From: Odiellus spinosus | Taxonomy: Eukaryota; Arthropoda; Arachnida; Opiliones; Phalangiidae | DNA length: 64,000 nt | Direction of reading: 5' to 3' | Assembly: GCA_963920705.1 (NCBI GenBank) | Contig: OY987236.1 | Coordinates: 12,882,190-12,946,189, forward strand | Shown here: positions 25,980 through 59,558 of the stretch, piece after piece | Numbering within the stretch: position 1 is the stretch's first letter | How the letters are laid out: every line of letters begins with the position of its first letter | The notes under the pieces: generated by a model | What the model saw: only the letters and a program-made list of their open reading frames with translations | Told to the model about the DNA's origin: nothing | The model's database searches: none | Made by a program: the position numbers and the translations under genes

Positions 25980-27705
25980 TTACAATACTCCAACCATGTT
26001 CATCGCCGAATTCATTACAGAAAGCGCCGAAAATGTTATTATCCCTTTGATTTGATCTTTCATCATGTCCATGAAGGCTGAAACCCCGTAACTTGCCATA
26101 GGGCCCCAAATTGGCCCTAGGCTTACAATGCTAAAATAATACAAAAGTAGTTGAAGACCCTATTATTATAATTTGAAAAGGAGTGGAGAATAAAAGCCAG
26201 CGATACTTGTTAATGTGTTTTGGCAATATTAAGGAATTAAATACCTAGGGTTCGGTTTTCCCATCATAGTTATTGAAAATCTACTCAATATCGGTGGTAA
26301 ACCCGACGAAGATCTGTTTACCAGATCAATTTCAGCTAGAACGTTAGGCACTTGAACTTTGACTACCATAAAAAACCTGTAAAATCATCGAATTTAAAGT
26401 TAAAGAGCCGTATATTCCTTACCATTAAAAGTTAGGCGTATCTCTTTGCAGACCAAGCCAATCGGAAGTAGATTAATGTAGAAGTAGTAAAGCTTTAATG
26501 AAGCGTACCATTAGAGGACATATTTTTCAATATAAATCGAAAGATCAAAGTTACTTAGCTAGACCTAATCTTTAACTTGAATTTATTATTGTCTTTGGAC
26601 GTTTATGACTTATCTTCGAATATAAGATATAAACTTATGCTGTACCGGTAACCTTGTTTCCTGTTTCCCCCTTTTCATTGGGTAAAGACTAAGCCCTTTT
26701 AAATAAGCCACATACCTGAATCTCCGGGACTGTACCATAGCTCTAGTTGTCAAAGTGTAGTTGGGTATTATAACTGGCGCTGTCAAAATTGGTCTGCCTG
26801 GTCGCCGAGTGTGGTCAAAGAGTATGGGTCCTATTCTTTCGATACCTGCCATTCCCTGAACCGTACCGTTGTAAAGCGTGTACGATAGAGTCACGGGTTG
26901 ATACATCAAGCGAAAGGTCAAATAGTCTCTCATTCCAAACTGAGGAATAATGACGTGGTCGTTCAGAGAGGTTAAGTAGGACCTGACACTGCGCGTAATA
27001 CGGTCAAAATATTCGTTTGGGCTCGAAGGAGCTCCGGGAGATACTACATTCTGGATTCCTTGCGTTTTGAGTTGTCCAAACGTAGCAACTAAATTAAATA
27101 ACCGTTTCAAATATTAAAAGGTCTAATCTTGTACAGAATATATTATAGGAAGTTTTTATTTTGTTTGTTGGTTTGTTTGCTTTCGATTTGATACACTTTC
27201 GAAGGGAAATTTTGTAGGGTACTCTGTCAGAGGAAAGCTTTCTTCAGCCTGCTCTTAGCTCCTCTACTGCTTCTAGAGATAATTTCGATTTTCAGTTCGC
27301 AAATCATTTATTAAAAATACTAAACTTAAGTACATTTTTATGACTTATTCATAGAAAGGCGGATTGTCACGCTCCAATCTTTATCATTCACTTATTTAAA
27401 CTTCATTGATATTATATATAGCTTAAACATTACCAACTCAAAATAAGATTTCTATTGGCTATACTCTTCTGAAATAAGATTTCTATTGGCTATACTCTTC
27501 TGAAATAAGATTTCTATTGGCTATACTCTTCTGAAATAAGATTTCTATTGGCTATACTCTTCTGAAATAAGATTTATAATAGCTATACTCTTCTGAAATA
27601 AGATTTATATTGGCTATACTCTTCTGAAATATAAATTGGCTAATAAATTTATAGTTTAAGGGAATAACTACTATACTTACATATTAAAAGCACTGCCAGT
27701 TTCAT
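25980..27705 (-). CDS. Divergent group-7-allergen-like secreted protein
   Basis: Four exons on the - strand: 27681-27705, 26716-27088, 26245-26376 and 25980-26130, together 681 nt or 226 aa. All junctions are GT-AG and in frame. The signal peptide begins MKLAVLLIFATFGQL. The group 7 allergen-like pattern is recognisable but weak: NEYFDRITRSVRSYL for the N-terminal helix, LYNGTVQGMAGIERIGPI where relatives have GLSTLHRAGD, and IVSLGPIWGPMASYGV where relatives have FKNLGPLNWILDG. The family adopts the BPI/TULIP fold and presumably binds hydrophobic ligands; the exact ligand is unknown. There is no membrane anchor. It is the most divergent member and marks the left edge of the cluster. Intron 1 holds a 31-bp minisatellite. 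A TATA box lies at 27791. Confidence 0.75.
27440..27640. repeat. 31-bp minisatellite in intron 1
   Basis: Six copies and a partial of a 31-bp unit (AAATAAGATTTCTATTGGCT followed by ATACTCTTCTG), the first four nearly identical. It lies in the first intron of the group-7-like gene at 25980-27705. Confidence 0.9.
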
Positions 27706-27790
27706 TTTGAATCGGGTCTCGCAAATAAACTTGAGCACTTTAATATCTCAGATCAAATCGGAATAAAAAGGTTCAATCAATTAGCATAGA

Positions 27791-27798
27791 CTTATATA
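27791..27798 (-). promoter_or_regulatory. TATA box of group-7-like gene at 25980
   Basis: TATATAAG on the - strand, about 90 bp upstream of the start codon at 27705. Position and sequence fit a core promoter. Confidence 0.55.
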
Positions 27799-28134
27799 GT
27801 TTCAGTTTTGACGCCGTCGGTCGCGTCATTGCCTGAGCAAATACTGATTTACTAATTATATGGGAAGTGATTTTCAATGGTAATCTTGAAAATATGAATT
27901 TTAAATGTATTCCAACTGTTTATTTAAAAATCAATTTTACTGGCCATCAATAAACGCAACCAGGAAGTATTTAACCTGGAAAATTAGCTCGTTGACCCCC
28001 AGTAATTGCTCAGTATTGTTTGAATATACCTTAAAGGGAGAATGTAACCTAACAACAATTAATTTTTTTTATCGATTCTTTATCGTTTAAACAATTCTAA
28101 TCCAACAGTAAAAAAATTTACAAACCAATATTAA

Positions 28135-29045
28135 GGCTTAGTACCATTGGATCGAAATTCATTTGATCGACACAGGGTCCATTAGATCGAAATTCAATGG
28201 ATCGACATGCAGAACCAAATGATCGACACTTAAAAAAAGAAGACTCAAATGATCGACAGGTAAAAAAGATTGAATGTAATAGACATGCAGTACCATTGGA
28301 TCGAAATTCATTTGATCGACACAGGGTCCATTAGATCGAAATTCAGTGGATCGACATGCAGAACCAAATGATCGACACTTACAAAAAGAAGATTCAAATG
28401 ATCGACAGTTAAAAAAGATTGAGTGGAATAGATATGAAGTACCATTGGATCGACATGCAGAACCAAATGATCGAAAATATCAAATAAAATTCAAAAAGAC
28501 TTGATACTGCATAGATTTAAAAATCGATTAGTTAATTTAAAACCTATCGATTTTTAAATCCATGCAATATTAAGTATTTTTAAAATTAATTTAATAACCT
28601 AACCTAACCTAACCTAACCCTACAAAACGCAATAATTTTATATATTAACCAAATAATTTCGATTATTTAACACACCATTTTCACGATGAGGATTCAAACT
28701 CAGTATCTTTTTACAATCCATGCTGGCTACCCTTTCGGGCAACGGGTCACGGCATCTCAATTAAAACGAGAGAGACTGTCGATCAAATAAATTTCGATCA
28801 AATGGGGCTATTCCGTCGATCAAATGAGACACACTGTCGATCAGATAAATTTCGATCCAATGGACCCTTTGTCGATCGAATGAATTTCAATCTATTGGTA
28901 AAAAACGAGAGAGACTGTCGATCAAATAAATTTCGATCAAATGGGGCTATCCCGTCGATCAAATGAGACACACTGTCGATCAGATAAATTTCGATCCAAA
29001 GGACCCTTTGTCGATCGGATGAATTTCTATCTATTGGTAATATCC
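28135..29045. mobile_element. Nested long-TIR element packed with GATCGA motifs
   Basis: It is flanked by a direct CCAATATTAA on each side (28125-28134 and 29046-29055), which marks the insertion. The long inverted ends are dense in GATCGA spaced about 17-18 bp apart. The left half is two tandem copies of a unit of about 149 bp (about 28143-28440) and the right half two copies of about 138 bp (about 28763-29037). The centre holds a small hairpin (28508-28567) and an AACCT run at 28596-28620. The 9-10-bp duplication would suit a Mutator-like element, but superfamily assignment is inference. Confidence 0.75.
28596..28620. repeat. Short interstitial telomere-type repeat (AACCT)n
   Basis: Four perfect AACCT units and a fifth imperfect one. 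AACCT is the complement of the TTAGG telomere motif found in many arthropods. It lies inside the nested GATCGA element. Confidence 0.8.
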
Positions 29046-29369
29046 CCAATATTAAATTAGAAATATATTTAAAACCTGCCTTCAAAATAGGCTTAACTGG
29101 ATTCATGAAGATAGCCTGAACTCCAAAACGTTGATCATGGAGATCCTGCATTCCCCATATAAAAGCCATCGAATATTTGGTCGCTAGTCCTTATACGGGG
29201 AGTTCAGGTAATATCCACGAATTCAACTAACCCTATTTTCCGGGTAAGTTTTAAATTTATTTCTAGTTTAATATTTGTTCGTAAATTTTTTTACAGGTGG
29301 ATTAGGCCTATTTAAACGATACTGAATCGATAAAAAATTATTTGTTTTTAGGTTGCGTTCTCCCTTTAA

Positions 29370-30620: not shown

Positions 30621-31754
30621 ATGTTAATAATTGTAGTCACGTGCCTCATGGTCGTCATGAGTTTTACATCGGTGTTTGGTGATAACCAAACCGAGCAACC
30701 TGATTCGTTAACGCAATTCGATGCGATAATTAACGACAACTTGATTGCTTTTCAAAATAAGATGTTAAAGGGATTGCCCAATTTGAACTTAACTGGTTTT
30801 AACCCTATCATTATGGGGCCACGAAATTTCAAGGAACAGAATGATATGGTTGCCGTTAGTTTAGATGTAAAACAGGTAATAGCTGATACTCGTTTCTTCA
30901 AGAGATATTTTTTTTTCCTCGCCTTAATATATAGTTGACCTTGCAATAGATCAACATTTTTGGATTAATTTCTTTCGGTTATGAAATGAAGAAAAGCGGA
31001 AATAGTTCGATAACTTTGGATTTAAGTTACCCTTACCTGACTACCCGAGGTTTATACACAATGACTGGCAAGACCTTCAAAGTCTTCCCTCTTATCGGTA
31101 CAGCTAGATTCCTACGTACTTTATTTCTTAATCGATTTGAAACGGTAAAATCTAACCGATATTCAAATCGCCAGGAATCGTTTTAAGCGTCACGTGTTCA
31201 GGCGTTTTCTTTATAAATCGATTTATCGTAGCTTTATCTATCGGTTGTTGAAACGGAATCGGTACGAAACTGGTTCCCGAAGCAGTTTCGAGAACTCGAA
31301 TCAAATCGATTCGAGAAGAGACGGTTTCCTGTTCACACGACTCTAGCGAAACGTTTTAAATCGATTCCAAGGCCTAGTATGAACGCGGCTTTTTTGAGTG
31401 AGTTCGTGGTCTAAGAAATATTTTTTAGGTGAAGGAAGCTACGAGGTTAAGATCCAAGGAGCTAAAATGAATTTGGAGGGAAAATTCTCCGAAGTTAATT
31501 CCAAGGTTATCTTCGAAGCCGGTGATATCGAATTCGATTACGAAACGTTGACCGTACGATTGGAGAACTTTGGCGGGGGTTCTTCCGTTTCCGTTTTGGT
31601 AAAGACCATTCTTCAGGCTTTCGGCAAGGACATTTTAACATATATAGAACCGATCATGAAAGCCAGGATGAAACCAGTTTTAAATCAAATGTTTTACGAA
31701 ATATTGTCAAAAAATGAAGCTCAAGTTCTAGCGAGAAACCTCTTTTTAAAATGA
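30621..31754 (+). CDS. Takeout/JHBP-like secreted protein 1
   Basis: Three exons: 30621-30875, 30950-31097 and 31429-31754, together 729 nt or 242 aa. The signal peptide begins MLIIVVTCLMVVMSF. Family features in order are GLPNLNLTGFNPI (relatives: GIPxxKLPPADPL), VSLDVKQ before the first intron, INIFGLISFGYEM, the strand-rich TTRGLYTMTGKTFKVFPLIG, EGSYEVKIQG, and a C-terminal helical block rich in K, M and L. Takeout/JHBP proteins are extracellular carriers of juvenile hormone or other lipids with a BPI-type fold. The usual N-terminal cysteine pair is absent; the mature protein has no cysteine. The second junction (ATCG|GTACAG to TTTAG|GTGAAG) was chosen because it restores the PLxGxGxY motif of the relatives. 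It has fewer introns than its relatives. It converges with the next gene, with 54 bp between stop codons. Confidence 0.82.
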
Positions 31755-31802
31755 TTATTTTAAAACAATTTGTATTTAAAAATTGTCAAGGTTTTGTGAT
31801 AA

Positions 31803-31808
31803 TTTATT
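31803..31808 (-). terminator. Polyadenylation signal abutting a stop codon
   Basis: AATAAA on the - strand begins at the base directly after the TAA of the takeout-like gene at 31809-33543, in the 54-bp gap to the convergent neighbour. Confidence 0.55.
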
Positions 31809-33543
31809 TTAAAATCCCAATCTTCCAGCGATACCAGGAATAAAAGTAATCAAAACGTTTCTAACCGAATCTTTTTGCAACTCCGAATTGATTAGTTTTG
31901 TCATCCCGCGACTGGCCAACGCCATAATTTTAGGTTTAAACTCTTGGAAAAAGGTTTTTCCCAATCCTGGTAGCATTTTTTGAATTTGTGAGCCAAAATC
32001 TCCTCCGCCCAAGAAATCACCTGTTAAATTTATAAAAATGTTAGAACTGAACTGAACCGAATACAAGGTGAGCGGGAGTATATAACCCTCAAAGATTTCT
32101 TTAAGGAAGATAGCCATCATTTTAGGGCCGTGACCCCATATTGAGCCTTTAACCTAAACTAAAATTCACATAGATTAAACTGATGGCAAACTTTGCAACT
32201 CGTTTTGGATGGGCTCAAAGGGGCGGGGGTATACTCCTTTTAAAGGGACTATCTGCGATTTTTAAAGCCCCTTTAAAGTCGAGTAATATTCTAGCGTAGC
32301 AGACGGCGTTGACCATAACAAATTGTACAAAGCAAGGCTGTGTGCATAAGGGAAGATTGTTTTAAAGGGGTAAATTTCAGAGCAGATAGGACATTTAAAG
32401 GGAGTATAAAGATCAGCTCCTGTCACTACAAAATATTCACTAAAATCTTTAAGGAAAAAAACCTCGTGCCTGTAAGCAGACGATTTTTCAAACTGGTTTA
32501 TACTCCCTTTAAAGAAATCAAAGACAATAAAATGAAACTAATTGAAAAAAGACGAACCTAAATTTAAATCCAATTGGTCCCACTGCAAGTTCAACTCGAG
32601 GGGAGTTACGATGAGTTGTTTACTCTGGGTTGTTAATGTTGTTTTGGCCCCTATTTGAATTGCCGTGATTTTTACCTCGTAGTTTCCGGTTCCATAAAGC
32701 GGTATCAACTTGAAAAATTTTCCTGTCAAATTGTATGACCCAGAAATGACCAAGCTGGGCAATTGTAAGCCCGCATCCACCGTCAGGGTGTTGAGATTTG
32801 CTTTCAGTTTCTCCACTTGGAAACTCGATAGACCCACAATATTTATCTACGATCATAGATTAATCACTTACATACGTTCATGGAAACAGAGCTAATCAGA
32901 GCGAGGTAATATACTTCGTGGATATCGAGATCTAATTCCACTTGGTCGTTTCGAACATGTATCTGTTCGTTTTTCATGTTTAGCGGATCAGCCGGAGGTA
33001 GTTTTATCAAGGGTATGCCACCTGTCATTTTATTGTTATTATTATTATAGGGTCATGGACAGTTTTTCTTAAAAATATATATATACATATATATATATCA
33101 ATGTTCCCCTGGCAGTAAGACTTCGAAAAATATCTAATTTTAAGCCTAGATTAACATGTTTTCCATAATAAACAAACACCCTAAAAAAATCGTGGGAATG
33201 GTAACCAGTCATGTCAATTTGAGCGAATTAAATTAATTAAAAAAAGTTAATTCCCAGAACTGTAAGAACACACCCCTACCTTTCATTTGTAGCCGAAAAT
33301 TCTCCAAAACCCCTCGTAGAAATTGACCCATTCCATCGAACTCGATGTCCTCGTAGTTTCCATTCCGAATGTCGGAAGGCCATTTTATTTGACCTAGATG
33401 TGGACCAATCAAAATATATAATTTGGTTTTCCCTGGACTACAGAATCTTCCCACGATAATTTGTAAAACTAAAATATTTAACTTTAATTACCATTGACTG
33501 ACGCTGCGAGGAGAAAAGGCAATATTAGAAAGCCAGTATACAT
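31809..33543 (-). CDS. Takeout/JHBP-like secreted protein 2
   Basis: Five exons on the - strand: 33492-33543, 33280-33393, 32915-33021, 32558-32846 and 31809-32020, together 774 nt or 257 aa. The signal peptide MYTGFLILPFLLAASVNG is followed by QIKWPSDI. The body shows FLRGVLENFRLQMKG, GIPLIKLPPADPLNM, VELDLDIHE, INIVGLSSFQVEKL, LPSLVISGSYNLTGKF, KLIPLYGTGNYEVKI, LDLNLGDFLGGGDFGSQIQ and a C-terminal FKPKIMALASRGMTK helix. These are the takeout/JHBP landmarks in order, but the mature protein contains no cysteine, so the typical N-terminal disulfide is missing. An extra intron after MKG is unique to this gene, and the intron that its two neighbours carry after the GxGxY strand is absent. A - strand AATAAA directly abuts the stop codon. 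Intron 4 contains a TATACTCC-ended MITE. Confidence 0.87.
31839..31844 (+). terminator. Probable poly(A) signal inside the opposite gene
   Basis: The first + strand AATAAA after the takeout-like gene ending at 31754 lies inside the last coding exon of the convergent gene. If it is used, the two mRNAs overlap at their 3' ends. Confidence 0.45.
32230..32408. mobile_element. MITE with TATACTCCCTTTAAA ends, in an intron
   Basis: 179 bp with inverted ends TATACTCCTTTTAAAGG and, on the other strand, TATACTCCCTTTAAATG. The interior carries GACTATCTGCGATTTTTAAA. Related pieces are at 35331-35508, 39014-39160, 48891-49003 and 63800-63873. This copy is in intron 4 of the takeout-like gene at 31809-33543. 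Confidence 0.65.
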
Positions 33544-33883: not shown

Positions 33884-36003
33884 CTATCCAGTGAGAGCCG
33901 GAATAAAATTATTCAGTGCTTTTTTCACTTCTTCTTTCTGCAACTCGGAATTGATTATTTTTGTCAACCCGCGACTGGCCAGCGCCATAATTTTAGGTTT
34001 AGACTCTTGGAAAAAGGTTTTGCTTAATTCAGGAAGCAATCTTTGAACTTGTAAGGCAAAATCACCTCCGCCCAAGAAATTACCTGTTAAATTCGTAAAA
34101 ACCCAAGAACTGAAGTGAACCGAATAAAGTCAGATACGTGAAGTTGTTATGGGGAGGGAACCAAACTTTTAAGGGAGCAAGGATTTTTTGAAGGAAGGTC
34201 CCCATAATTTTAGGGGATTGAACCTTTAACCAACGCTAAAATTCACATAGCTCGATTAAACTGGTGGGAAACTTCAGAGCCCTGGACCTTTTTGAAACGA
34301 AGAGGGATCGAGAGGGGGGTTATATAAAAACAAAGATTAAAAAAAGAAAAGGCACAAACCTAAATCAACTTTAATGTCTTGCCAGTCAAGATCGAGAACC
34401 AATGGCAAAATAACAAAATCCTTCCCGTTACTAGTTAAAATCGTTTTTGCCGCCATTTCAGCCCCAGTTACCTGTAATGTCCTTCTATAAATTAATTTCG
34501 GGTATACTTTAATCAAATTATACATGTATATTAGTTCATAATCGTTATTCAGAATTCATATATTTGTATATAAGCCCCTTGTTAAGGCGCCAGATTTTCA
34601 TACAGATTGGCAGTTGGAACCATAGAAAATATGGTAAAAGGAATAGAATCTTCAGTTGGTAGCTGTTCCAATCCAATCTGGTTTATTCAACTTCCTGAGA
34701 TCAGTGCCTCGCTAAAGGGTGTCATATTTTTCGTTCATAAAGACTAAAAAGGCCAAGTCTATTATTTAGTTTTTTTTTTTTTTTTTTTTTTTTTGAGCTG
34801 ATCAATGCATGACTGGTTACTCGGCTCCAATAGGAGAGCTACCGGAAGTAGAGATACCAGAGCTTAAGCTCGACTAGACCCGTCCGCAAAAAATTGTACA
34901 GGCAATTAATTCTTACGGTTCTATTCCTTAGACTATATATGCTATGTTGGAATTGAATTCTTGAGATTGAAAGTTTGTGATATAGCCTACCGTAATTTTA
35001 TAGCTCCCATCTCCGTATAGGGGTATCAATTTCATAAACGTTCCGTTAACTTGATATGATCCAGATAAAGTCACGCTTGGTAATCGAAATCTAGCGTCTA
35101 AGGTTAAAGTTCCGAGGTTAGCATTCAGTTTGGGTACTCGGAAACTGGAAAGTCCAACAACCTTGATCTGTTATGAGTTATAGATTTGGTTTAGTGGCAA
35201 AATAAACTCATGATAACTCTTAAGTATATACGCAACACTGAATGAGACCATGTCTGTCCTAATGGTAAATACCATTTTTTTTTTTTTTTTTTTTTTTTTT
35301 CATTCCTTGCGAACGACCCATGGCATTACGCTTAAAGGGGCTATATATGATTCTAAAATCGCCTTTTTTTTTTTTTTTTTTTTTTTTTTCTTAGCGCGCA
35401 GTTGACTTAGACCATAACAGATTTTATAGTCTAAGCTAGGCTGTAGGCATAAGGGAAGATGCTATTATAGAGGCAAATTTTGTAGCAGATGGTGCCTTTA
35501 ATAGTCTGCGTCACGGGGTGTTTAGTAACTTACCTCGTGGAGTTTGAAGTCTAGTTCCACTTGGCTATTATTAACTTGGACCCGTTCGCTTTTCCAGTTT
35601 AAAGGGTCAGCTGGTGGTAGCTTAATCATAGGGATACCGACTTTTATATGTTCTCGCAAATTCTCCAAAGTCCACCTCAGAAACCTTTCCAAAGCTTCGG
35701 TTTTTAAATCACCTTCGTAAATTTCAGCCGGCAATATAAATTTACCTAAGGAATTAATTTTACCCTAAGTATTCAATTTGGTTGTGAATATATAACCAAT
35801 AAAACCTTCTGATTAACGAATATTAAATCAATGGCATGCTTTAGAAAGTCAAAACACCTTGAAATAAATTGCATCCATGACTTCAAAAAGAACCCATTTA
35901 TATATTGTATACATTTAACACTGTGACAAACAAGCAGACGATGTGTCAACGTACCATAGGATGATACGACCAGAAAGGTCAATAATATAACCACGCTTTT
36001 CAT
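33884..36003 (-). CDS. Takeout/JHBP-like secreted protein 3 (duplicate A)
   Basis: Five exons on the - strand: 35955-36003, 35534-35745, 34991-35167, 34360-34471 and 33884-34083, together 750 nt or 249 aa. Signal peptide MKSVVILLTFLVVSSYG, then KFILPAEIYEGD. Landmarks are ERFLRWTLENLREH, GIPMIKLPPADPLNW, VELDFKLHE, IKVVGLSSFRVPKL, LPSVTLSGSYQVNGTF, LIPLYGDGSYKIT, LDLDWQDIKVDLGNFLGGG and a C-terminal FFQESKPKIMALASRG helix. There are no cysteines in the mature protein. The start at 36003 is preferred over an upstream in-frame ATG at 36048, because that ATG lies only 15 bp from the TATA box and the duplicate has an in-frame stop there. Compared with duplicate B, an AAG to TAG change removes the last four residues. 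Intron 2 carries two poly(T) runs and a piece of the TATACTCC MITE. Confidence 0.87.
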
Positions 36004-37593: not shown

Positions 37594-39670
37594 TTAAAAA
37601 ATCAACTTTCCAGTAATAGCCGGAATAAAATTATTCAGTACTTTTTTCACTTCTTCTTTCTGCAACTCGGAGTTGATTAGTTTTGTCAACCCGCGACTGG
37701 CCAGCGCCATAATTTTAGGTTTAAACTCTTGGAAAAAGGTTTTGCTTAATCCAGGAAGTAATCTTTGAACTTGTAAGGCAAAATCTCCACCGCCCAAGAA
37801 ATTCCCTGTTAAATTCGTAAAAACCCAAGAATTGAAGTAAACCGAATAAAGTCAGATACGTGAAGTTGTTTTAAAGTGTAACCCGCAAGAATTTTTTGAA
37901 GGAAGATCCCCGTAATTTTAGGGATGACCCCCATATTGAGCCTTTAACCAACGCTAAAATTCACATAGCTCTATTTAACTGGTGGGAATCTTCAGAGCTC
38001 TGGCACTCTTTGGACCGAAAGATAGAAGATAAAGATCAAAAAAAGAAAAAACACAAACCTAAATCAACTTTAATGTCTTGCCAGTCAAGATCAAGAACCA
38101 ATGGTAAAATAACAAAATCCTTCCCGTTACTAGTTAAAGTCGTTTTTGCCGCCATTAGAGCCCCCGTTACCTGTAATTTCATTCTATAAATTAATTTCAG
38201 GTATACTTTAATCAAATAATATATTAATTTATATACGTTATTCAAAATTTACAAATATATAAAAGCGAATGAATATGATCGCCCTTTGTTAAGGTGCCAG
38301 ATTATTATAAAAATTGGCAGTTGGAATGATAGAAAATATGGTAAAAGGAATAGAATCTTCACTTGGTAGCTGTCCCAATCCAATCTGATCTATTCAACTT
38401 CCGGAAATCAGTGCCACGCTATAAGGCATACTGTTATATCTTTCGTTCATAAATACTATAAACGCCAAGTCTGCTTAGTCTTTACTTTTTTATCGACTGC
38501 TCTGTCTGTTCAATGCCTGCTTGGTCACTCGACGCCAATAGGAGAGCTACCGGAAGTAGAGATACTTCGACTAAACCCGTCACCAAATAATGTACAGCCA
38601 GTTGTTAAGCTTCTATTCCTTGGACTATATATTCTATGTTGGAATTGAGTTCTCGAGATTGAAAGTTTGTGATATAGCCTACCGTAATCTTGTAGTTCCC
38701 ATCTCCGTATAAGGGTATAAATTTGATAAACTTTCCGTTAACTTGGTATGATCCAGATAAAGTCACGCTTGGTAATCGAAGGCTAGCGTCCAAGGTTAAA
38801 GTTCCGAGGTTAGCATTCAGTTTGGGTACTTCGAAACTCGAAAGTCCAGCAACCTTGATCTGTTATGAGTTATGAAATTCGGTTTAGTGGCAACATAAAC
38901 TCATGATAACTCTTAAGTACGCAACTCTGAATGAGACCATGTCTGTCCGAATGGACCCCAATTTTGTAAAATAAAATTCCATTCCTTTCGAACGACCCCC
39001 ATGGCATTACTTTTAAAGGGGCTCTATATGATTTTAAAATCGCCATCTTTTTTTTTGCTTAGCACGCATATGACATTTTAGAGTCTAAGCTAGGCTGTAT
39101 GCGTAACAGAAGATGGTATTACAGGGTTAAATTTTATAGCAGATGGGGCCTTTAATAGTCATCGTCACGGGGTTGTTACTGTTTAGTACATCTTACCTCG
39201 TGGAGTTTGAGGTCCAGTTCCACTTGGTTATTATTGACTTGAACCCGTTCGCTTTTCCAATTTAAAGGGTCAGCTGGTGGTAGCTTAATCAAAGGGATAC
39301 CGACTTTCATTTGTTCTCGGAAATTCTCCAAAGTCAACCTCAGAAACTTTTCCAAACCTTCGGTGTTTCCATCACCTTCGTAAATTTCAGCCGGCAATAT
39401 AAATTTACCTAGGGAATTAATTTTACCGTAAGTATGCAATTTGGTTGTGGATAATTATCCAATAAAACCTTATGATTAACGATTACGAAAATTAAACCAA
39501 TGGCTTGCTTTAGAAAGCCATAACACCACGAAATCAATTACATCCGTCATCTCAAAAAGAATCCATTTACTTTGTATACATTTAACACTGCGACAAACAA
39601 GCAGATGATGTATCAACTTACCATAAGATGATACGACCAGAAAGGTCAATACTATAACCACGCTTTTCAT
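37594..39670 (-). CDS. Takeout/JHBP-like secreted protein 4 (duplicate B)
   Basis: Five exons on the - strand: 39622-39670, 39197-39408, 38683-38859, 38059-38170 and 37594-37805, together 762 nt or 253 aa. Exon sizes and phases are identical to duplicate A except at the very end. Signal peptide MKSVVIVLTFLVVSSYG, then KFILPAEIYEGDGN. The landmarks are as in duplicate A, including GIPLIKLPPADPLNW, LSGSYQVNGKF, IPLYGDGNYKIT, VDLGNFLGGGDFALQV and the C-terminal tail FIPAITGKLIF. The mature protein has no cysteine. It forms a head-to-head pair with the group-7-like gene at 40120 (449 bp between start codons), so the two may share regulatory DNA. Function as an extracellular carrier of a hydrophobic ligand is inferred from family. 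Confidence 0.88.
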
Positions 39671-39729
39671 CTTGGATGCTGTAACGTCAGTCTAGGAGCT
39701 GAAATTGAATCTAATGATCTCTGCTCTGT

Positions 39730-39737
39730 TTTATATA
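39730..39737 (-). promoter_or_regulatory. TATA box of takeout-like gene 4
   Basis: TATATAAA on the - strand, about 60 bp upstream of the ATG at 39670. It matches unit A at 36063-36070. Confidence 0.65.
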
Positions 39738-40043
39738 TCGCGTTAAAATCACGGAAGATATTGATTAAAACGCGCTCAACAGATAAGAAAAAGGAAATTT
39801 ATTTTCCAAAATGTAAAAAGTGGCCAGTCACCTAAAATAAGAGATATATATTTATAAAAATGACAAAATGATAACTTTTCGAAAATCGTATCCTTCAATA
39901 TAACAACCCGATTTAAATGACAAATTACTAATAATTGAAACTATACTCATTAGAAAAAAATATTTTTGTTTCTAATTGATAACAAAATGGATAAATCGAG
40001 ATATGTTATCGTTATTGGAACAAACGAACGGTCCTCTCCAATT

Positions 40044-40051
40044 TATATAAA
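40044..40051 (+). promoter_or_regulatory. TATA box of group-7-like gene at 40120
   Basis: TATATAAA, 68 bp upstream of the ATG, at the junction where duplication unit B ends. Confidence 0.65.
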
Positions 40052-40119
40052 AACCGCGTAATCCTTCGTGAAAAACTTAGAACCGTTTTGGTTACACGTG
40101 TGATTATATACATTTCAAA

Positions 40120-41787
40120 ATGAAATTCACCGTTCTCATATCACTAACTTTGGTCTTGCATTCTGCATATGCCGCAGTGACTCCAGAATATGAAGATGTT
40201 TTCGTTGGTATGATATTTTAAAGTTTTTTTTTGTAAAATTAGATTCTTTGTAGGGAAAATGGAACAGCTTTTGAATTTATTTTCGGAATCACTATGCCTA
40301 AAAACGTATACGAGAATTTTTCAGAATTTTTAGACACGTTTTTGGTATTTACAGTAATTTCTGAAGTTTGGTAAAAAATTAAAAAAAAAAAAAAAAAAAA
40401 AAGGAAATATAAATTCGGACCAATCATATTATTGCAGCCTTCTACAGCGCTTGTTATGTCCTAACATTAACAGAATAGGCAGGCGATTGATCACCAATGT
40501 CATATACATTTTTTAATGTTAGGAAATTACAAGCGCTGTTGAAGGCTGAAATAATAGAGGGGTCCGACACTCTTGTATTCGCTGTACACTTGAGTTCAAC
40601 TTTGACAGCGCGTTTAGTTCGAACTCTTGTGAACTCTGAGTTCAGCTTCGATAGTGCAAAGAGTTAAAAAAATTTGTACACCTGAGTTCTCGAGTGTCTG
40701 CCCCCTCGGAAATAATATGATTGGCCCGAATTTATACATACATTTATTAAAATTTTACGAAACTTCATAAATTAATTTAAACACCAAAAACGAGTCTAAA
40801 ATTCCGAATACGTTTTCTGACATGGCGATTCCGAAAATAAATTCAAAAGCTGATCTATATTAGCTCCAAGTTTCCCTTTAATGTAAATCATGGGATTGGG
40901 AATCATGATACAAAAGGGAAACCTTCAAAGTCGTTGTGAAAGTCTCTCCCTGATGCACGCCAAAGGCAGGAACCAATTAGTCCCACTCTTAATTAGAGCG
41001 CTATAAATTAAAATCTGATTTAATATATTTTATTTTTTTTTTATAAAAATGTGAAGAATTCCCTGGTGAGGTTTTCGTACCGATTGAAAATCGTACCTCA
41101 AACTACCATGGGAAAAATTACGCCGCTGTCGAAGGCAATGCAAACGTTTACTTGGATAACTTGTTGAAAGAAGCGGGGTCCGCTTTTCAGTCCAATAACC
41201 TCGACCCATTGCCCTTACCCGATGTGGACAAAAGTTTCGAAAAAAAAGTATGGTTCGTCACGTTTTACGGAGGTTTCCGGGCTTACAATGGAAAACTTCG
41301 AGGTAGAAATTAAACCGTATATTATTCATTGAGCCCTCTATAACTCCTCGACGTTTGATTAGGCCTATCAACTCTTCATCGGGCTGGAGACGCCACCTTG
41401 GAAACTTCTTCAAACGGCGACACGACTTACATTAAAGCGACTTTGGCTGTAAATAATATGAACGTCGGAACAGACGCTAAAGCTTGGTTCGGAAAACTCA
41501 GTATTCCATGGTACATGGGATCGACCATCAAGTACTTGAAATGTACCATAGAGTTAAAGGTTCCCGCTACTCCAGGCGCCAAGCCCGTAGCGACCAGACT
41601 AACCATTAACGAAATTGGTACCATTTTGATAAATTTCAAGAACCTAGGACCACTAAATTGGATTCTGGATGGAGTAGGCTTTCTTATTACTAATATGATA
41701 AAAAATTCTTTGAAAAATGCCATCGCCAGTCCTATTTTGAATACGATTAACTCCGTCATCCCCAATCTACCCGGATTTACTTTTTAA
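40120..41787 (+). CDS. Group-7-allergen-like secreted protein A
   Basis: Three exons: 40120-40207, 41057-41302 and 41363-41787, together 759 nt or 252 aa. The signal peptide MKFTVLISLTLVLHSAYA is followed by an acidic spacer. Family landmarks are NANVYLDNLLKEAGSAF, NNLDPLPLPD, VTFYGGFRAYNGKLRG, GLSTLHRAGDATLE, NNMNVGTDAKAWFGKL, ATRLTINEIGTI and NFKNLGPLNWILDGVGF. Insect group-7-allergen-like proteins are secreted and share the BPI/TULIP fold of mite group 7 allergens; the ligand is unknown. There is one cysteine in the mature chain. The acceptor at 41057 follows a T-rich tract and matches the paralogue at 51036. The 849-bp intron 1 is largely filled by a foldback element with a nested MITE. 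It is divergent from takeout-like gene 4. Confidence 0.88.
40245..40865. mobile_element. Large foldback element in intron 1, with nested MITE
   Basis: The left arm (about 40245-40475) and right arm (about 40510-40865) are inverted copies: GCTTTTGAATTTATTTTCGG pairs with CCGAAAATAAATTCAAAAGC, and CAGCCTTCTACAGCGCTTGT pairs with ACAAGCGCTGTTGAAGGCTG. The right arm is interrupted by the 152-bp MITE at 40557-40708, and the left arm by a poly(A) run at 40380-40402. There is no coding capacity. Confidence 0.8.
40557..40708. mobile_element. MITE with 9-bp target duplication, copy 2
   Basis: Same family as 36630-36790, with ends GAGGGGTCCGACACTC and GAGTGTCTGCCCCCTCG. It is flanked by direct GAAATAATA (40548-40556 and 40709-40717). 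It inserted into the right arm of the foldback element, so it is younger than its host. Confidence 0.88.
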
Positions 41788-42455: not shown

Positions 42456-44520
42456 TTATGAACCAGCACCAGCCATTCCTTGAATTAATTTGGCTACAAT
42501 TTGGCGTACTTCGTCGGTGTTAAGTTTCAAATTGGCTTGTTTGGTCAAAGCTTCGCTGGCCTTCTTCAAAAGATTGGGCTTGTATTGTTCGAAAAGTGTT
42601 TTGCCCATAGTAGAAATGATCTTCGAAACGGTCTTCCCAAAACTGCCACCGCCCAAGAAATTACCCATGTCGACGTGAATTTCTTCAAATATACAGTGTA
42701 GAGTAGGTTCCATAATCTCCATGTCTTCTTCGCCTAAAATTAGAGTAGTGGATCCACCCAATTCTGCCCCGACTATAAGAAGAGAAACCAGACTTCAAAG
42801 AAAGGCGTACAGTAACTCCTTATACGTCACTATGACGTCAACAGGTTTTATTTTACCTATGGTCACGTTGTAATTTCCATTTCCGAAAATTGGTACGAAT
42901 TTCATAACCTTGCCCTGAACCTCATAAATGCCAGAAATGACCACTCTAGGGAACTTGAGTATGGCTTTGATCGACAAATTAGGCAAATCTGGCTTTAGTT
43001 CCATAATTTCAAAACCGGATAAACCCTCGACTAGAATCTGTTATGAAATTGTTAAATATATTTTTTAGTTGTTTAATAATTTAATAATTAGCGTAAAGAT
43101 TATCTCAAATGAATCAAAATTATACTTTTTATAAAATTATCTTTAATTAAAGTTAATTATTAATTTTTAGTATTTGTTTTAATTTAAATCGCGTAAGATT
43201 TAATTTAAATCGCGTAAGATTTAATTTAAATTGCACCAGATTTAATTTAAATTGCACTAGATTTAATTTAAATTGAACCAGATTTAATTCAAATTGCACC
43301 AGATTTAATTTAAATTGAACCAGAGTTAATTTAAATTGCACCAAATTTAATTTCAATTGCACCAGATTTAATTTAAATTGCACCAGATTTAATTGAAATT
43401 GCACCAGATTTAATTGAAATTGCAACAGGTTTAATTTAAATTTTGAATCTAGACCATGCAACTTTGAATTTAATTAACAAATAACGTGGTAACCTATAAT
43501 TCATATGTGAGCTAATTATGAAAAGCAATGGTCAAATTTAACTTGTTACCTCGTGTAACTTGAGATCCAAGTCAACCTTATCTTGGTTTACTCGAACTTT
43601 TTGATCTTTCAAATGTAGTGGTTCAAGAGGTGGTAGTTTCATGGCGGGGATACCATCTTTCATTTGAGCTCGTAAATTTTCCAGAGATTCCCTGATGTAT
43701 TTTTCGAAATTGATTTCCTCTTTGGATTGGTATGTTTCCAAAGGGATAGCTGATTTTTAATATAAAAAATTATAAGATTAAGTTAGGCTTAACTTTGGAA
43801 TATAACTTTCTCATTATACATGGCAGGCATTGATGGTCAATTTATAAAGACTGATAAGTCAATGCATATTTAAATTCCGACCCTTTAAAGAAATCCTTGA
43901 AAATAGTATTTCCAGTTTCAGTGGCGTAACCTTTCAAGGAACACTCGAATTGATCTTGAAGCGATCAATAAATGCTTGTACAGGAGTTCTTGGGGGGACC
44001 ACAAATATGGAACGGGTACCCTAAGCTCATGAGCAACTGGCTTATTTGCTCCTCTGTCACTACGCCTAAGATTTCCTCCTGGTAAATGTCGTCTGATTAA
44101 GTGATGTTTCTGCGTTTTATTGGTCTATTGATAGCACGAAAGGCCTAGACCTTTAATCTGGTTATCAAATAACCAATAGAAAGACAAATCTCATAAACAG
44201 ACGATGTTAATCAGCCCGATCCTTTTAGCCTAACCGTATCTTGGACATATTGGCTCCGGGATTTAAATTTCAAATCCTATAATCTCAGTATTTTTAATTT
44301 TAATTTATTGCTACGTGGAGCTTTGAGAACTGAGCTTATATCATTTATTTGAGGATTAACAAAATACCTAACACCACTTTATGAAAATTTACAGTGGTGC
44401 GTAATAATCATTTAGAGTGAAAATTTCTATATATATCGCGAGTTTTTGGATCCAAGGACTAAGTAACTTACCATAAGCTTCTATGGCCAAAAAGGCGATG
44501 ATTAATGCAAGGTATTTCAT
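42456..44520 (-). CDS. Takeout/JHBP-like secreted protein 5
   Basis: Four exons on the - strand: 44472-44520, 43550-43749, 42857-43037 and 42456-42772, together 747 nt or 248 aa. The signal peptide MKYLALIIAFLAIEAYA is followed by IPLETYQSKEE. Landmarks are YIRESLENLRAQMKD, GIPAMKLPPLEPLHL, VDLDLKLHE, ILVEGLSGFEIMEL, FPRVVISGIYEVQGKV, FVPIFGNGNYNVTI, HVDMGNFLGGGSFG and a C-terminal YKPNLLKKASEALTK helix. One cysteine remains in the mature chain (LHCIF) and the N-terminal pair typical of the family is absent. The penultimate intron of duplicates A and B is missing, while the intron after the GNGNY strand is shifted to phase 1. Intron 2 is mostly a 21-bp minisatellite. Role as an extracellular hydrophobic-ligand carrier is inferred from the family. 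Confidence 0.86.
43165..43440. repeat. 21-bp minisatellite in intron 2
   Basis: About thirteen copies of ATTTAATTTAAATTGCACCA plus G, with scattered substitutions, inside intron 2 of takeout-like gene 5. The unit is open in one reverse frame and creates a false 102-codon frame of repeating QFKLNLV. Confidence 0.9.
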
Positions 44521-46075: not shown

Positions 46076-47744
46076 TTAAAAATTAATTCCCGGACCTGGC
46101 AGGTTGGAGATTGATTTGTTAATAGCCTTGAGGATAGGTCCAGAAATCTTGCTCTTGAGAACATTCTTGAACATATTGGTAAAAGCGAAACCCATTCCGT
46201 TCAAAATCCAGTTCAAAGGTCCTAAGTTCTTGAAATTAACCGAAATTTTTCCAATCTTGTGAATGGTCATCTCAGTGGCTTTGGGTTTAACTCCGTTCTT
46301 TGAATTGGCTGGAACCTCCATAGCGATAGTGGCCTTCAAGTACTTAATCGTTGACGACATATACCAAGGAATGTTCAGTTTGCCAAACCAGGCTCTGGCG
46401 TCCGTTCCAACGTTCATGTTTTCCACTGCCAATGTTGCTTTGACTTTGATGATATCGCCTTCGAAATCCAGAGTAGCGTCTCCAGCTCGGTGTAGAGTTG
46501 CTAGGCCTAGAATTCAATCAATATCAATCTAGATAAGTGTTCCAATTACTTTAATTACAACCGAAAATAAAAGGAAAATACCTTTTAAAAGTCCATTGGT
46601 CGCCTTGAAACCGCCGTGAAATCTTACTTTAAAAAAAAGGGGAATATATATGTTGGTGTGTCAAAATGTCAAATCAAAAATAAAACTTTGTGTCCGATTC
46701 TCACAATAAATTACCCATAAAGAGGTAAAGGGAGGGGGGAGAAATGTATAAATTTGACAAAATATTACCAAAGGAAAAATCTCTAAATTTGACAAAAAAT
46801 TACCAAAGGAAAAATCTCTAAATTTGACAAATAATTTCCAAAGGAATAAATCTCTAAATTTGACACGTTACTTCTAAATTTGACAAAAAAGTCAAGTTTA
46901 GCCCCCTGCCAATACGATTTAAGAACAGTAAATAGTAACCACCGTGCGGCCAAACTTATCACGACTTAAGGATTCATACCTAAACCAACTTTCTTGTCGA
47001 AACCTTTGTTGATGTCGGGGAGGCTGAGTGGATCGAGGTTCGATTCGAAGAATGATTCTCTCGCGTTTTTCAACAGTTCGTCCAAGTACTGATTAGCGTT
47101 ACCCACCGCCGTTTGGTACTCGTAGTGACCCATTACGCCGTGCGTTTCATTTTGCGGTTGACCTATATCTTCTTCGGGGTATTCTGAAAATATGAAAATA
47201 AAACTTTACATGAATTTTTCAAATTGAAAATGTTAATTGCATATTTCATCTAACGTAATTATATTTAATTATATTGAAAATAGAGTATTAAAGGGTGAGT
47301 AAAGCCTTACAACAGGTGATTTTCAATCGATATATTCAACGTCCACTAATAAAAATGTTTTCTTAATAGGAAAGTAGAAATCAATGGAGAATTTGGTATC
47401 TCGCCGTTAACCAGTCTCCAGCGAATTACTCCTCAAGTAGACTCTTTTATTCGTTGGCTGAAGACTGTTTAACAGTGAGATTTCAGTCTCTCCTTGTTAA
47501 AAACTGATTATGGGGTGTGGCTACACTAATGGAGTTATCCATCTTGTTTTTCTACCTTAGTGAATTAGGTTTGTTTCAAGTATTAGGAAGCGATAGAAAC
47601 ATTCTAGTTGTGGGGCTTCATTGTCCCTTTTCTTGAAAATATTAACAAAATGTCTAACAAAAACTTACCAATAACGATGGATTCACATTGTACGTGACTT
47701 AAGAAGGCCAGGATCGCCAAGCAACTCAGTGTTTTAAACGTCAT
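46076..47744 (-). CDS. Group-7-allergen-like secreted protein B
   Basis: Four exons on the - strand: 47669-47744, 46980-47183, 46582-46626 (only 45 bp) and 46076-46506, together 756 nt or 251 aa. The signal peptide begins MTFKTLSCLAILAFLSH. Landmarks are NANQYLDELLKNARESF, SNLDPLSLPD, FHGGFKATNGLLKG, LATLHRAGDATLD, ENMNVGTDARAWFGKL, ATEMTIHKIGKI and NFKNLGPLNWILNGMGF. It is the closest relative of the gene at 40120 but has an extra intron splitting the central strand, with a micro-exon coding VRFHGGFKATNGLLK. Intron 2 (the longer one next to the micro-exon) holds a 35-bp repeat. Secreted carrier function is inferred from family; the ligand is unknown. Confidence 0.87.
46745..46870. repeat. 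35-bp tandem repeat in intron
   Basis: Three to four copies of a unit of about 35 bp (TAAATTTGACAAAAAATTAC, then CAAAGGAAAAATCTC) inside the intron between exons 2 and 3 of the group-7-like gene at 46076-47744. Confidence 0.85.
47288..47632. mobile_element. Divergent member of the TTAA MITE family
   Basis: The left end is TTAA followed by AGGGTGAGTAAAGCCTTACA, then AACAGGTGATTTTCAATCGA. The right end (GTGGGGCTTCATTGTCCCTT) is a decayed complement without a clear second TTAA. It lies in intron 1 of the group-7-like gene at 46076-47744. Confidence 0.5.
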
Positions 47745-51035: not shown

Positions 51036-52246
51036 ATGATCTGGAAACCATTCTTTCTCGGTGCCTTTTTCTTGGTTTTTTTTAAAACAGTTTTTTCCAA
51101 AGAAGAATTAGAATATTATAAGTTGGGTATGTCATATCTAAATTAATATAAATTGCCGGTAATTACAGATATATTGTAACGAGCTTAAAAGGAGTTAGAA
51201 TTTGTTAATCACTTCCTTATAAAATCGACTGTAACTTTGGTAGAAATCCAATTTAAAAATCGATTTTTCCTATAAATATTTAGAGGTCTAAGGCTCCTAA
51301 ATTTCCGTAGGAAAATCAGTCAATTATGGAAGTTTCCACGATTGACTGATTGTTGATGTATAAATCAAATTTCTAAGATCAGGATTGTTAGCTCCCTATT
51401 AGAGGATATTACTTTTTTAATGATTTAATTTGGGATAATATTACATTACGAATTTAAGGTCATCTTTTTAATTAAATAACTTATTACTAATCCTTTAAGA
51501 TTATCCTGGGGAAACATTTGTTACGTCATTACACAATAATGAATTAAATGATGGCGATAATGGAGCTAATTACAATGTGGCTAACGCTAATGTATTCTTG
51601 GACATGATGTTAAAAGACGCCGAAAAAAAGATAAAGGATAACAAATTGGATCCTCTTACCCTTCCTGATACGAACAAATTGGTTAAACAACGTCTTTTGG
51701 TTTTAGTATTGGAAGGAGGGTATAGTACAAGAAACGGGAAACTTCACGGTAAATTTTATTTCATCGCTTTCTCTCACTCTTTACATCGATCTTTATATGG
51801 TAATATTGAACAATGATACGTTAGGCCTGTCTACCATCCACCGAGCCGGAAATTCGACTTTGGAAAATAAAGGGGACAGTATGGAAACGGTAGCCACGTT
51901 GTCCTTTCGCCACCTGTCTGTGGAAACGGACGCGCAAGTATGGTTGACCGCAGTCAATGTTCCCTTTCGTATGACAGCCTCCATCGAGTATTTGAAGGCA
52001 ACCATAACGGTGGTGATTCCCTTAAGCAAGGGGGAAAAGATCAGGGCCACCAGTTTTGTCATTAACGAAATTGGCCGAATTTCCATGAAGTTCAAAAACC
52101 TTGGGCCTCTGAACTGGTTGTTAGACGGACTCGGCAGTTTAGTGACCAATATGTTAAAGAATGTTATCAAGAATCAGATATCACACAAAATGCTGGACTC
52201 TATCAACTCGGTCATTCCTAAATTAGCTGGTGGTTTTGGAATTTAA
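51036..52246 (+). CDS. Group-7-allergen-like secreted protein C
   Basis: Three exons: 51036-51126, 51500-51748 and 51825-52246, together 762 nt or 253 aa, with the same intron phases as the gene at 40120. The signal peptide begins MIWKPFFLGAFFLVFFKTVF. Landmarks are ANVFLDMMLKDAEKKIKD, NKLDPLTLPD, LEGGYSTRNGKLHG, GLSTIHRAGNSTLE, TDAQVWLTAVNVPF, ATSFVINEIGRI and KFKNLGPLNWLLDGLGS. A five-codon upstream frame (ATG at 51025) ends with a TGA that overlaps this ATG by two bases, which could favour reinitiation. The gene is convergent with the next one (239 bp between stops). Intron 2 is only 76 bp. The ligand is unknown; secretion and TULIP fold follow from the family. Confidence 0.88.
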
Positions 52247-52485: not shown

Positions 52486-53428
52486 TTAAAATATTGGTAG
52501 TTTGGAGTCTTGCAAGTACTTCTTGACAATTCCGTGCATGACCTTTTCAGTAACGTTCTTGACGGTTCTCTTTAAGAGATCGGTGATCAATCCGGAGAAG
52601 AAGTTGATCAAGTATTTCAAGGGGCCCAAATTGGTTATTTTTACTTCCAAACCCCTTAAAGCTTTCAAGGAGAACCTAAAATAAGGAGAAATTACATATT
52701 TGAGTCTCATTTTTAGGCACTGAGAACTTACTTGGTCAATTCGGCTTTACTACCGGGAACAGCGGTTCTCGAGAGAAGTTGCAAGTCAATATCCGCGAAA
52801 CCAACTTTGGCAACGATATCGATGGAAGGTCCCAAGTTCATGAACTTAAGGTCGGCGGTAGCCTTGGCGTTAAGAACACCCATGCCCAGAGTAGCGTCAA
52901 CGATCATGGTTCCGTTTCCGAAGGACAGGGTACAGTCGTCGGTCCTGTGCAAGGTGGTTAGTCCGTTGATAATGGTATTTCTGACCTTCATTTCTCCTTT
53001 CCAAGTGACTAGGATGATCTTTCTTTCGAAACCGACCCTCTGGTCGGGCATTAGGTATGGCTCCAAAGGTACGTCAACGTTTTTTCTCATGCTGTCCAAA
53101 AGCATGTCCACGAAGTAGTTGGCATTACCTTTGTCCTCAGGCTTTTGAGCTAATTTTACGATAACAAGAAGTTTGGTGGTTTAAAGGCATTATGAAGGCT
53201 CTCTACCCTAAAGAGTTAAGTTCTAGTTTTCTGAAACCAAACGCTCCTTCAACACGATATATTATTAAATCACATGATTAACTTCTTATATATAAAGGCA
53301 AAGAAATAAATGTATTTATTTCGGTGTCCCTTTAATTATTAATTTGAAAAACAAGCATTGAAATAAATTACAAAATCGTTACCTATGCAGAAAGCGCAAA
53401 CGGACAATAGAATTAAAACCTTAATCAT
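52486..53428 (-). CDS. Group-7-allergen-like secreted protein D
   Basis: Three exons on the - strand: 53383-53428, 52732-53149 and 52486-52675, together 654 nt or 217 aa. Signal peptide MIKVLILLSVCAFCIA, then QKPEDKG. Landmarks are NANYFVDMLLDSMRKNV, EPYLMPDQ, VTWKGEMKVRNTIING, GLTTLHRTDDCTLSF, ADLKFMNLGPSIDIVAKV, GLEVKITNLGPLKYLINFF and a C-terminal helix ending KYLQDSKLPIF. It is shorter than proteins A-C and keeps the regular alternating strands of mite group 7 allergens. The intron before the last exon is phase 2, as in the divergent gene at 25980, not as in A-C. Codons ending in C or G are far commoner than elsewhere in the window (GAC, AAC, ACC, AAG), which may reflect high expression; that is inference. 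Confidence 0.88.
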
Positions 53429-57600: not shown

Positions 57601-58713
57601 AAAATATGTCGAGATTTATAAAATAGAATAAATATTTCTAATATTTATTACGTTTTGAAATTAAATATTACGAATATTTACTAAAAATGAACTGAAATTA
57701 TTCACTAAAGTTAATTACGTCTAAACATATGAATTAAATATTTTTTGCTTTTCAAATTCTAATAAAAATCTAATTTAATCGCTTATTGTAAAATTTATGC
57801 AAATTTGGGGTTAAATCTTGTTAGATTAACCGCGAAGAGCGCTATCTCTGACATTTCATATTGATACTTAATTAAAATATCACCCTAAGAGTACAGCGTG
57901 TAGAAAACCACTCTGAATTATTTCAACGATATTAAATAGGAGACATTAATAAAGCTAGAAGCTTACGCTCGCTCTAATCTATAGAATAATTTTGAATTTA
58001 AACAAAATTTTAATTATTAAAAACTTGGTATCAATTAAATTATACTTTTACTAGATTCGAGTAAAGTTTAACTAAAATTTAATTAAAATTAAAACAATTC
58101 AACCTACAGATGTCGCCCTGTAATGTCCATCAGTTTCCAAGTTTCGGGAGGGGAGAGCATCGACAAACTACTAGTTTGTCGATGGGGAGAGGGAGTCCTA
58201 AGACTTCAGCCAATGGCGAGGCTAGAAACCTTTTAGTACCAATTTCAAACTCTTAGAAGGCGTCGCTTCGGAACTCCGAAGAACAATTCGAAATCAAATC
58301 TTTAACCGTAACTTTAAATGTTGAATTTACAATTTCGTAATTAACGAACAATCAAATGTGGACTTAAAAATTTACACCTACTACTAATTTAATACTAATT
58401 ATCGCTTTAAGTAAGTACCTTTATAAACTTGAATATTAAAGTTATTGACGCCGCAGTGAATACAGTACCTAGACCCCACTAGGGTTGGGTCTAGCTAAAA
58501 ATGGAACATATATTTGCGGTTGTAAATAATTATACTTATTCTTCAGCTTTAATGGCGTCAGCTTAACAAACATAATATACCATGTACGCAACTTTTAGAT
58601 TTTTATTGTGATATGTTAGAGTTAAAAAAATGTACTAGGCGTGGCATCATGACAGGTGTTTCTCAGATTACATGTATTTTTGCGAACTATGCATCGAAAA
58701 CACGCGATGATCT
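54695..58713. other. Long AT-rich intergenic region with a dispersed direct repeat
   Basis: The segment 55062-55266 recurs in the same orientation at 57756-57975 (AATAAAAATCTAATTTAATC at the start, GCTAGAAGCTTACGCTCGCT at the end). Between them lies AT-rich DNA dominated by TTAATTAA-like words. A perfect inverted repeat of 13-bp arms (CATCGACAAACTA, one-base centre) is at 58158-58184. No gene is recognised. Confidence 0.5.
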
Positions 58714-59558
58714 TTAGAACCATCCTAGACTCCCTGGCAATGGTGTTCTAGATACCGAATTTGTCAAGGCATAGCTGTAAGGTCCGTAGAAAGCGTTTGT
58801 CATCTTCATTAACATGATATTGACGACTCCAGGCTTTAGAGCCTTTTTAACGCTGTTATTAACTGGACCCAACCCGTTGAATTCCATTTCCATTTTGCCT
58901 AAACTGACTACCGTGAATTGAGCTAGTGCGGGATTACTAGAACCCCTGCGTGACGTAATCACCATGTTTAACAAAGGTCGGGTGTAATTGACCTCTACTG
59001 CTCCGATTCTTTCCGGTAATTTTCCGTATTTGACCTTGGCCTGATATTGAAGTGATTTAATCGGTTATAGTTCTACCTGTTCTGGTAAGAAATTTATTTA
59101 AAACGAGTATATGTTTCTTACCCCATAGTTTACTTTCAAATAGTTGAAGGTCACAGAACAGTTGAAGGTGATATTGCCATAGCTTAAGTAAGGAGTACCG
59201 CAATCTAGAGGTCTATAGCCCTTGCTGAATCCAGACATAGTGCCATTTAGAAAATGAGCGAAAACATTAACACCAACTGGTCCAATTTTGTCCTTGCCGT
59301 GGTCGTAAAACGGTGGCATTATTAGAGGGTCCAATCGGTTACTCCGTATCTCTGTAGTCATGGATATTTGCAGGAGACTGTCCACATAGTGGTTAGCGTC
59401 GCTTACACTCGAAGCTTGAATCAAAGCTGTTAGTTGATAAGGATGCGGTTAAATTATAAAATGTTATTGATTAGTACTTATAATTAATGTTTTGGCTACT
59501 TACAATCACAATGGAATAGAAAAATGCAGCAACAGAGCAAAATAATAATTCTAGCCAT
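58714..59558 (-). CDS. Divergent group-7-allergen-like secreted protein E
   Basis: Three exons on the - strand: 59504-59558, 59122-59426 and 58714-59040, together 687 nt or 228 aa. The signal peptide begins MARIIILLCCCIFLFHC. The landmarks are recognisable but altered: ANHYVDSLLQISMTTEI, SNRLDPLIMPPFYD, HFLNGTMSGFSKGYRPLDCG (relatives: NGKLxGLSTxHRAGD), and MEMEFNGLGPVNNSVKKAL (relatives: FKNLGPLNWxLDG). Unlike proteins A-D it carries two cysteines in the central strands and a tail TPLPGSLGWF. Its second intron is phase 0, at a position not used by the others. It marks the right edge of the cluster. A TATA-like motif lies at 59615. Confidence 0.78.

Follow-up and report, generated by a model that had tools for sequence, protein, structure and literature searches.

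A mixed gene cluster for probably secreted proteins of two putative sister TULIP families in Odiellus spinosus

Eleven genes at one locus

The window analysed here is a stretch of 64,000 nucleotides from the 443-Mb genome of Odiellus spinosus (G000:C14:12882190-12946189), and it contains a cluster of eleven genes, five of them coding for JHBP/takeout-like proteins (T1 to T5) and six for group-7-allergen-like proteins (7a to 7f). Gene models were built from six-frame open frames, a spliced-alignment script and inspection of the splice sites by eye, i.e. from the sequence only. All eleven models possess an ATG, GT-AG introns throughout and a stop codon, none contains an internal stop, and the products have lengths of 217 to 257 amino acids. 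The outer limits of the rebuilt cluster (25980-59558) are identical to those in a preliminary description of this DNA, which had also listed five genes of the first and six of the second kind. The cluster is genuine: members of known families are mixed in it, and within the reach of the searches the set is complete. With a probability of about 0.75, it arose by tandem duplication within two sister families of probably secreted TULIP proteins, whose founders were probably linked and whose members would serve as carriers of hydrophobic ligands.

The left end is formed by 7a (25980-27705, minus strand), a divergent group-7-allergen-like gene with four exons and a product of 226 amino acids, which reached an E-value of 6.3e-4 (20.3 bits) with the Pfam model Grp7. 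Four JHBP/takeout-like genes follow, namely T1 (30621-31754, plus strand; three exons, 242 amino acids, Pfam JHBP 5.5e-18), T2 (31809-33543, minus; five exons, 257 amino acids, 1.3e-32), T3 (33884-36003, minus; five exons, 249 amino acids, 5e-32), which is a tandem copy of T4, and T4 itself (37594-39670, minus; five exons, 253 amino acids, 1.7e-33). The group-7-allergen-like gene 7b (40120-41787, plus; three exons, 252 amino acids, Pfam Grp7 3.8e-27) separates these from T5 (42456-44520, minus; four exons, 248 amino acids, Pfam JHBP 8e-37). The right part of the cluster consists of group-7-allergen-like genes: 7c (46076-47744, minus; four exons, 251 amino acids, Pfam Grp7 3.4e-29), 7d (51036-52246, plus; three exons, 253 amino acids, 5.1e-25), 7e (52486-53428, minus; three exons, 217 amino acids, 1.5e-30) and 7f (58714-59558, minus; three exons, 228 amino acids, 1e-5). 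A short first exon with a phase-1 intron at its end is present in ten of the eleven genes, T1 being the exception.

Outside the exons of these genes, no additional TULIP exon was found in the window with the profiles of both families at E-values up to 5, and the 9.9 kb on each side of it (L041, L042) yielded no further members with an E-value of 1 or less. Since the profiles include the window's own proteins, the completeness of the set rests on this absence of extra matches. One exon of T2 was matched by both family profiles (7.4e-40 and 9.2e-4). The preliminary description had also stated that no unrelated intact gene interrupts the cluster. This holds for the part that was checked: there are 28 open frames of at least 65 amino acids outside the exons, of which ten were scanned against Pfam and none of these reached a cut-off, although a gene with small exons could escape such a scan.

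The mixed orientation of the genes and their unequal spacing, with intergenic gaps from 54 bp to 5.3 kb, might be taken as signs of an assembly artefact or of a chance neighbourhood. An artefact is disfavoured because the locus lies inside a contig of 19.7 Mb with zero N and because all eleven models are intact. Chance neighbours are disfavoured by the distribution of the family in the genome, where the Pfam search detected JHBP matches at four loci, i.e. the cluster and one locus each on C4, C5 and C2; a search with T5 added only a match at chance level on C7 (E 0.46). This census is a lower bound. Taken together, an origin by artefact or chance is very improbable.

The cluster is flanked by an Rrp15 gene on the left (24266-25096, minus strand) and a tetraspanin gene on the right (from about 60.5 kb, plus strand). 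Several repeats were observed within it. Intron 1 of 7a contains a 31-bp minisatellite with 6.2 copies (27441-27631), whose coding-strand unit repeats the acceptor-like TTATTTCAG, and a 21-bp minisatellite with 12.6 copies (43178-43442) lies in the T5 intron between exons 2 and 3, inside an open repeat frame of 106 amino acids. Between 7a and T1, two tandem duplications occur (28140-28453, 149 bp; 28763-29040, 139 bp), and GATCGA-like words are abundant in both. Left of the cluster, an open frame of 2360 amino acids (16650-23732, plus strand) extends through partly GC-richer DNA. It matched the Pfam model Fibrinogen_BP over the cut-off (2.3e-16) and an adhesin model under the cut-off, which was taken as compositional; the only match in an NCBIfam scan was to an adhesin repeat and stayed under the cut-off. 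Elsewhere in the genome, several COX1-like stretches with mitochondrial-type stops were seen at 1.1-4.4 Mb of G000:C17, which are probably nuclear copies of mitochondrial DNA. Arrays of TTAGG are frequent, COX1 is readable with genetic code 5, and a single match to the odorant-receptor family was obtained (6.3e-8).

Family assignment and relationship of the two families

All five T proteins passed the curated cut-off of the Pfam family PF06585 (JHBP) with most of the model covered (E 5.5e-18 to 8e-37) and are in this respect like the insect takeout/JHBP proteins, for example EpTo1, JHBP and the locust yellow protein. The cut-off of PF16984 (Grp7_allergen), the family of the mite allergens Der p 7 and Der f 7, was passed by all five proteins from 7b to 7f (E 1e-5 to 1.5e-30), including 7f with 26.1 bits, whereas 7a stayed just under it (20.3 bits compared to a cut-off of 21). 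With a profile of 7b-7e, 7a was matched at an E-value of 8.5e-7 (reversed control 0.11). The best relatives of the group-7 profile among solved structures were likewise Der p 7 (1.5e-12) and Der f 7 (about 2e-11). The profile searches thereby yielded two families and not one, as had been proposed beforehand.

Within these families the members of the cluster show peculiarities. Two N-terminal cysteines are said to be present in all takeout proteins (PMC6160090), whereas the cysteine pair of the N-terminal loop was detected in none of the five T proteins and in none of the three other JHBP-like domains, the N-terminal limits of which are approximate. As far as the census reaches, which is a lower bound, no JHBP-domain protein with a pair of the takeout type was detected in the genome. 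Because this pair is absent, T1-T5 appear to constitute a JHBP-domain family and not canonical takeout proteins. Among the group-7-like proteins, a cysteine pair occurs in 7f and in four dispersed relatives and sets them apart from 7a-7e, which do not possess it.

Takeout/JHBP and group-7 proteins are expected to be secreted and to hold a hydrophobic ligand. In agreement with the preliminary description, the products of the cluster are probably secreted. A hydrophobic N-terminus was found in all eleven of them by the Kyte-Doolittle scale alone. Family membership suggests a TULIP fold, and each product would most likely carry a small hydrophobic ligand, such as a lipid, an isoprenoid or a pigment, inside a tubular pocket. 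Ubiquinone was present in the solved structure of takeout 1 from Epiphyas, and JHBP is the carrier of juvenile hormone. The locust yellow protein has been reported as a carotenoid binder, with dispute about which carotenoid is bound (PMC11009388).

It had been assumed that both families share the TULIP fold and little sequence similarity. The assignment to two TULIP families is retained, but their similarity exceeds that of the fold: when all 8 JHBP-like domains were compared with all 12 group-7-like domains found, the profiles aligned over 181 columns with an E-value of 1.2e-6 (reversed control 0.0082). On the basis of this alignment, the JHBP/takeout-like and the group-7-allergen-like proteins can be regarded as sister TULIP families, which do not merely have the same fold. 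If they are sisters, their presence at one locus can be accounted for by local duplication.

Gene order, duplication history and regulation

The interleaved order noted before (7, T, T, T, T, 7, T, 7, 7, 7, 7) was recovered. It comprises five runs, compared to a mean of 6.45 in random orders, so that its degree of mixing is close to that of a random order; the chance of two clean blocks under random order is 0.0043. Such an order is what prolonged local duplication and inversion would produce, and no selection for mixing is needed to account for it.

In the phylogenetic tree, JHBP and group-7 domains were split with a support of 100/99. T1-T5 formed a single clade (92/92), within which T3 and T4 were sisters (99/99). 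The duplicated units of these two genes are alignable over 2.8 kb with 84% identity, and their dN/dS ratio is 0.41. The genes 7a-7e clustered with the group-7 domain encoded on C4 (87/88), and 7f was placed outside, with an ambiguous position relative to dispersed genes. A single clade of all six group-7 genes of the window was disfavoured by the approximately unbiased (AU) test (p 0.03), which was applied after the tree had been seen. In direct searches, the best matches of 7f lay elsewhere (C14:11.36 Mb, 2.9e-21; C8, 8.5e-14; C15, 2.2e-8; C5:20.57 Mb, 0.001), and its best match among the cluster neighbours was 7c (0.029). Four dispersed group-7-like genes were observed (L029, L030, L031, L032), together with a further fragment at L030:230-343.

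Since the divergence between the members is deep, the co-residence of both families looks old, as the preliminary description had suggested. Tandem clusters of the JHBP family as such are known: 76 JHBP/takeout genes with 29 tandem pairs were described for Spodoptera, in a paper whose main text nowhere uses the word 'allergen' (PMC11354444). A mixed JHBP/group-7 cluster was not described among the literature matches listed.

An alternative explanation is that selection keeps the mixed set together because the carriers are co-expressed, perhaps in tissues such as the gut or the fat body, so that the cluster is a co-regulated unit. One arrangement would favour shared regulation, namely the divergent pair T4/7b. 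This is the only close divergent pair of a T and a group-7 gene; its start codons are separated by 449 bp (39671-40119), and each of them is preceded by a TATA-like box, at distances of 67 bp and 76 bp. A possible parallel exists on 2L of Drosophila, where we take CG8997, CG7916, CG7953, CG33307 and CG33306 to be group-7-like; the JHBP genes CG5867, CG5945 and CG16820 presumably adjoin this group. CG33307, CG33306 and CG8997 are listed side by side in a table row for 2L (PMC3303825). The expression of CG8997, CG7916 and CG7953 differs between populations in both sexes and that of CG33307 in males; a regulatory element common to this 2L cluster was suggested in that study (PMC3040150).

The upstream regions of the Odiellus genes speak against such a unit. 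In ten upstream regions (T3 was left out because it nearly duplicates T4), no shared word was found beyond those in shuffled sequences. GATA sites, a test chosen after one 10-mer had been seen, were at background over all eleven genes (26 sites compared to 21.9 in random regions, P 0.23, and 22.7 in shuffled sequences, P 0.27). Furthermore, the gene order is no more alternating than a random one, and both the mixed orientation and the deep divergence are consistent with duplication alone. The shared regulation that had been proposed for the set thus found no support in these tests, and a co-regulated unit is an unlikely explanation of the cluster.

Joined two-domain genes and the origin of the cluster

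At two of the other JHBP loci, both domains are encoded by one gene. The gene model on C4 (G000:C4, about 15.239-15.241 Mb; L024:4734-2611, minus strand) consists of four exons and codes for 446 amino acids with a hydrophobic N-terminus. A JHBP domain (residues 75-249, 1.7e-33) is directly followed by a group-7 domain (253-426, 3.3e-27), and a single exon spans the border. Partial copies of the part of this gene coding for the C-terminus were observed on this contig at a distance of almost 12 Mb (L033:2089-2364, plus strand; G000:C4:3432572-3432964, near 3.43 Mb). The second locus, on C5 (10.603-10.605 Mb; L025:2251-3657, minus strand), is an intronless open frame of 469 amino acids, for which a first exon was not found. 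Its N-terminal half matched JHBP at residues 46-240 (Pfam 4.3e-22, in two stretches, of which one was located; 1.4e-8 with the T1-T5 profile). Its C-terminal half gave an E-value of 8e-7 with the 7b-7e profile and only 0.01 with the T profile, and no Pfam Grp7 match was reported for the frame. A dibasic KR lies between the two halves, which is a possible processing site. Both genes have the JHBP domain first and are unlinked to the cluster.

The C2 locus showed a JHBP match without a group-7 partner. No further members were found near C2, C4 or C5 when about 10 kb were scanned on each side (less 2.1 kb beside the C2 stretch). Since the cluster, C4 and C5 each have a group-7 partner and only C2 has JHBP alone, three of the four detected JHBP loci are tied to a group-7 domain. 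Because the families are homologous and both domains are joined in one gene at two other loci, the founding JHBP-like/group-7-like pair was probably already linked. The genes would then have become mixed through a long series of local copying and inversion events.

As a further alternative, the cluster might be the broken-up descendant of two-domain JHBP-group-7 genes, the fission of which gave single-domain carriers that later multiplied. The occurrence of both domains in one gene at two unlinked loci, with the same order, is consistent with this, as is the position of the C5 group-7 half, which branches before the other group-7 members when the tree is rooted on the JHBP side (85/79, long branch). 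A joined form may also exist in the bumblebee: one annotation line of a 2011 expression study mentions in passing that the Bombus terrestris transcript BTT05272_1 matches the JHBP domain as well as that of the mite allergen group 7 (PMC3276680). Nevertheless, all eleven genes separately encode a hydrophobic N-terminus, and no pair of neighbours on the same strand with a T gene followed by a group-7 gene is left in the window. The halves of the C4 and C5 proteins were not sisters in the tree, although sisterhood was not rejected (AU p 0.28 for the N-terminal and 0.10 for the C-terminal halves), and two separate fusions would account for the same facts. Fission is a possible but less likely origin.

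A still broader idea can be put forward tentatively. The JHBP/takeout and the group-7 family might each represent one half of a single ancient double-TULIP carrier of arthropods, of which the C4 and C5 genes would keep the joined form, while the cluster would represent dispersed single-domain progeny and the dust-mite allergen 7 and insect takeout would be separated halves of this one protein. The vertebrate double-TULIP proteins BPI and CETP likewise possess two TULIP-family domains per chain. In a comparison with the BPI/LBP/CETP family, the N-terminal model gave only an E-value of 0.091 for the C4 protein (12.9 bits, compared to a cut-off of 28.8) and no reported match for C5, and the model of the BPI C-terminal domain had no Pfam match in either protein. 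An orthology of the JHBP-then-group-7 order to the N-C order of BPI is thus not supported by the Pfam matches. A review of TULIP proteins, where it treats the double TULIPs, places them on the CETP/BPI side and mentions no arthropod one there (PMC5507252).

Several points weigh against the derivation of the cluster from a linked pair of sister families by tandem duplication. The significance of the match between the families depends on the inclusion of loci outside the window: mature T1-T5 alone gave an insignificant E-value of 0.094 with the 7b-7e profile, and T compared to all six group-7 genes including signal peptides gave 2.8e-4 with a probability of 41%. The C4 protein alone showed weak matches to takeout (0.0096) and Der p 7 (0.031). 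The group-7 profile also matched a designed PPR protein (4.7e-9 for the whole sequence, with no single stretch passing), which was taken as spurious. Long branches were flagged in the tree for 7a, T1, C2 and both halves of C5 (C5N and C5C), and C5N grouped with C2, a placement that was also flagged. No intron was found at the same position and phase across both families except the phase-1 intron of the signal peptide, which is common among secreted proteins. The five JHBP genes have a phase-0 intron just upstream of the GLxSF motif, and three of the six group-7 genes (7b-7d) have a phase-1 intron at the GLSTLH/GLATLH motif; these introns lie a few residues apart once the motifs are matched by eye. 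Finally, the linkage of JHBP and group-7 genes may be ancestral, but a single genome cannot show ancestry.

Takeout/JHBP and group-7 proteins are usually handled as separate families with related folds. The mixed locus and the joined genes in one genome lead to a testable history, in which one linked or joined pair would be the source of both families. It is the joined genes elsewhere in the genome that add interest, as they turn an ancestral linked or joined pair into a testable idea, and the loci on C4, C5 and C14 bear on the question of whether the joined form came first. The two-domain carriers on C4 and C5 could accommodate two ligands, like the BPI/CETP proteins.

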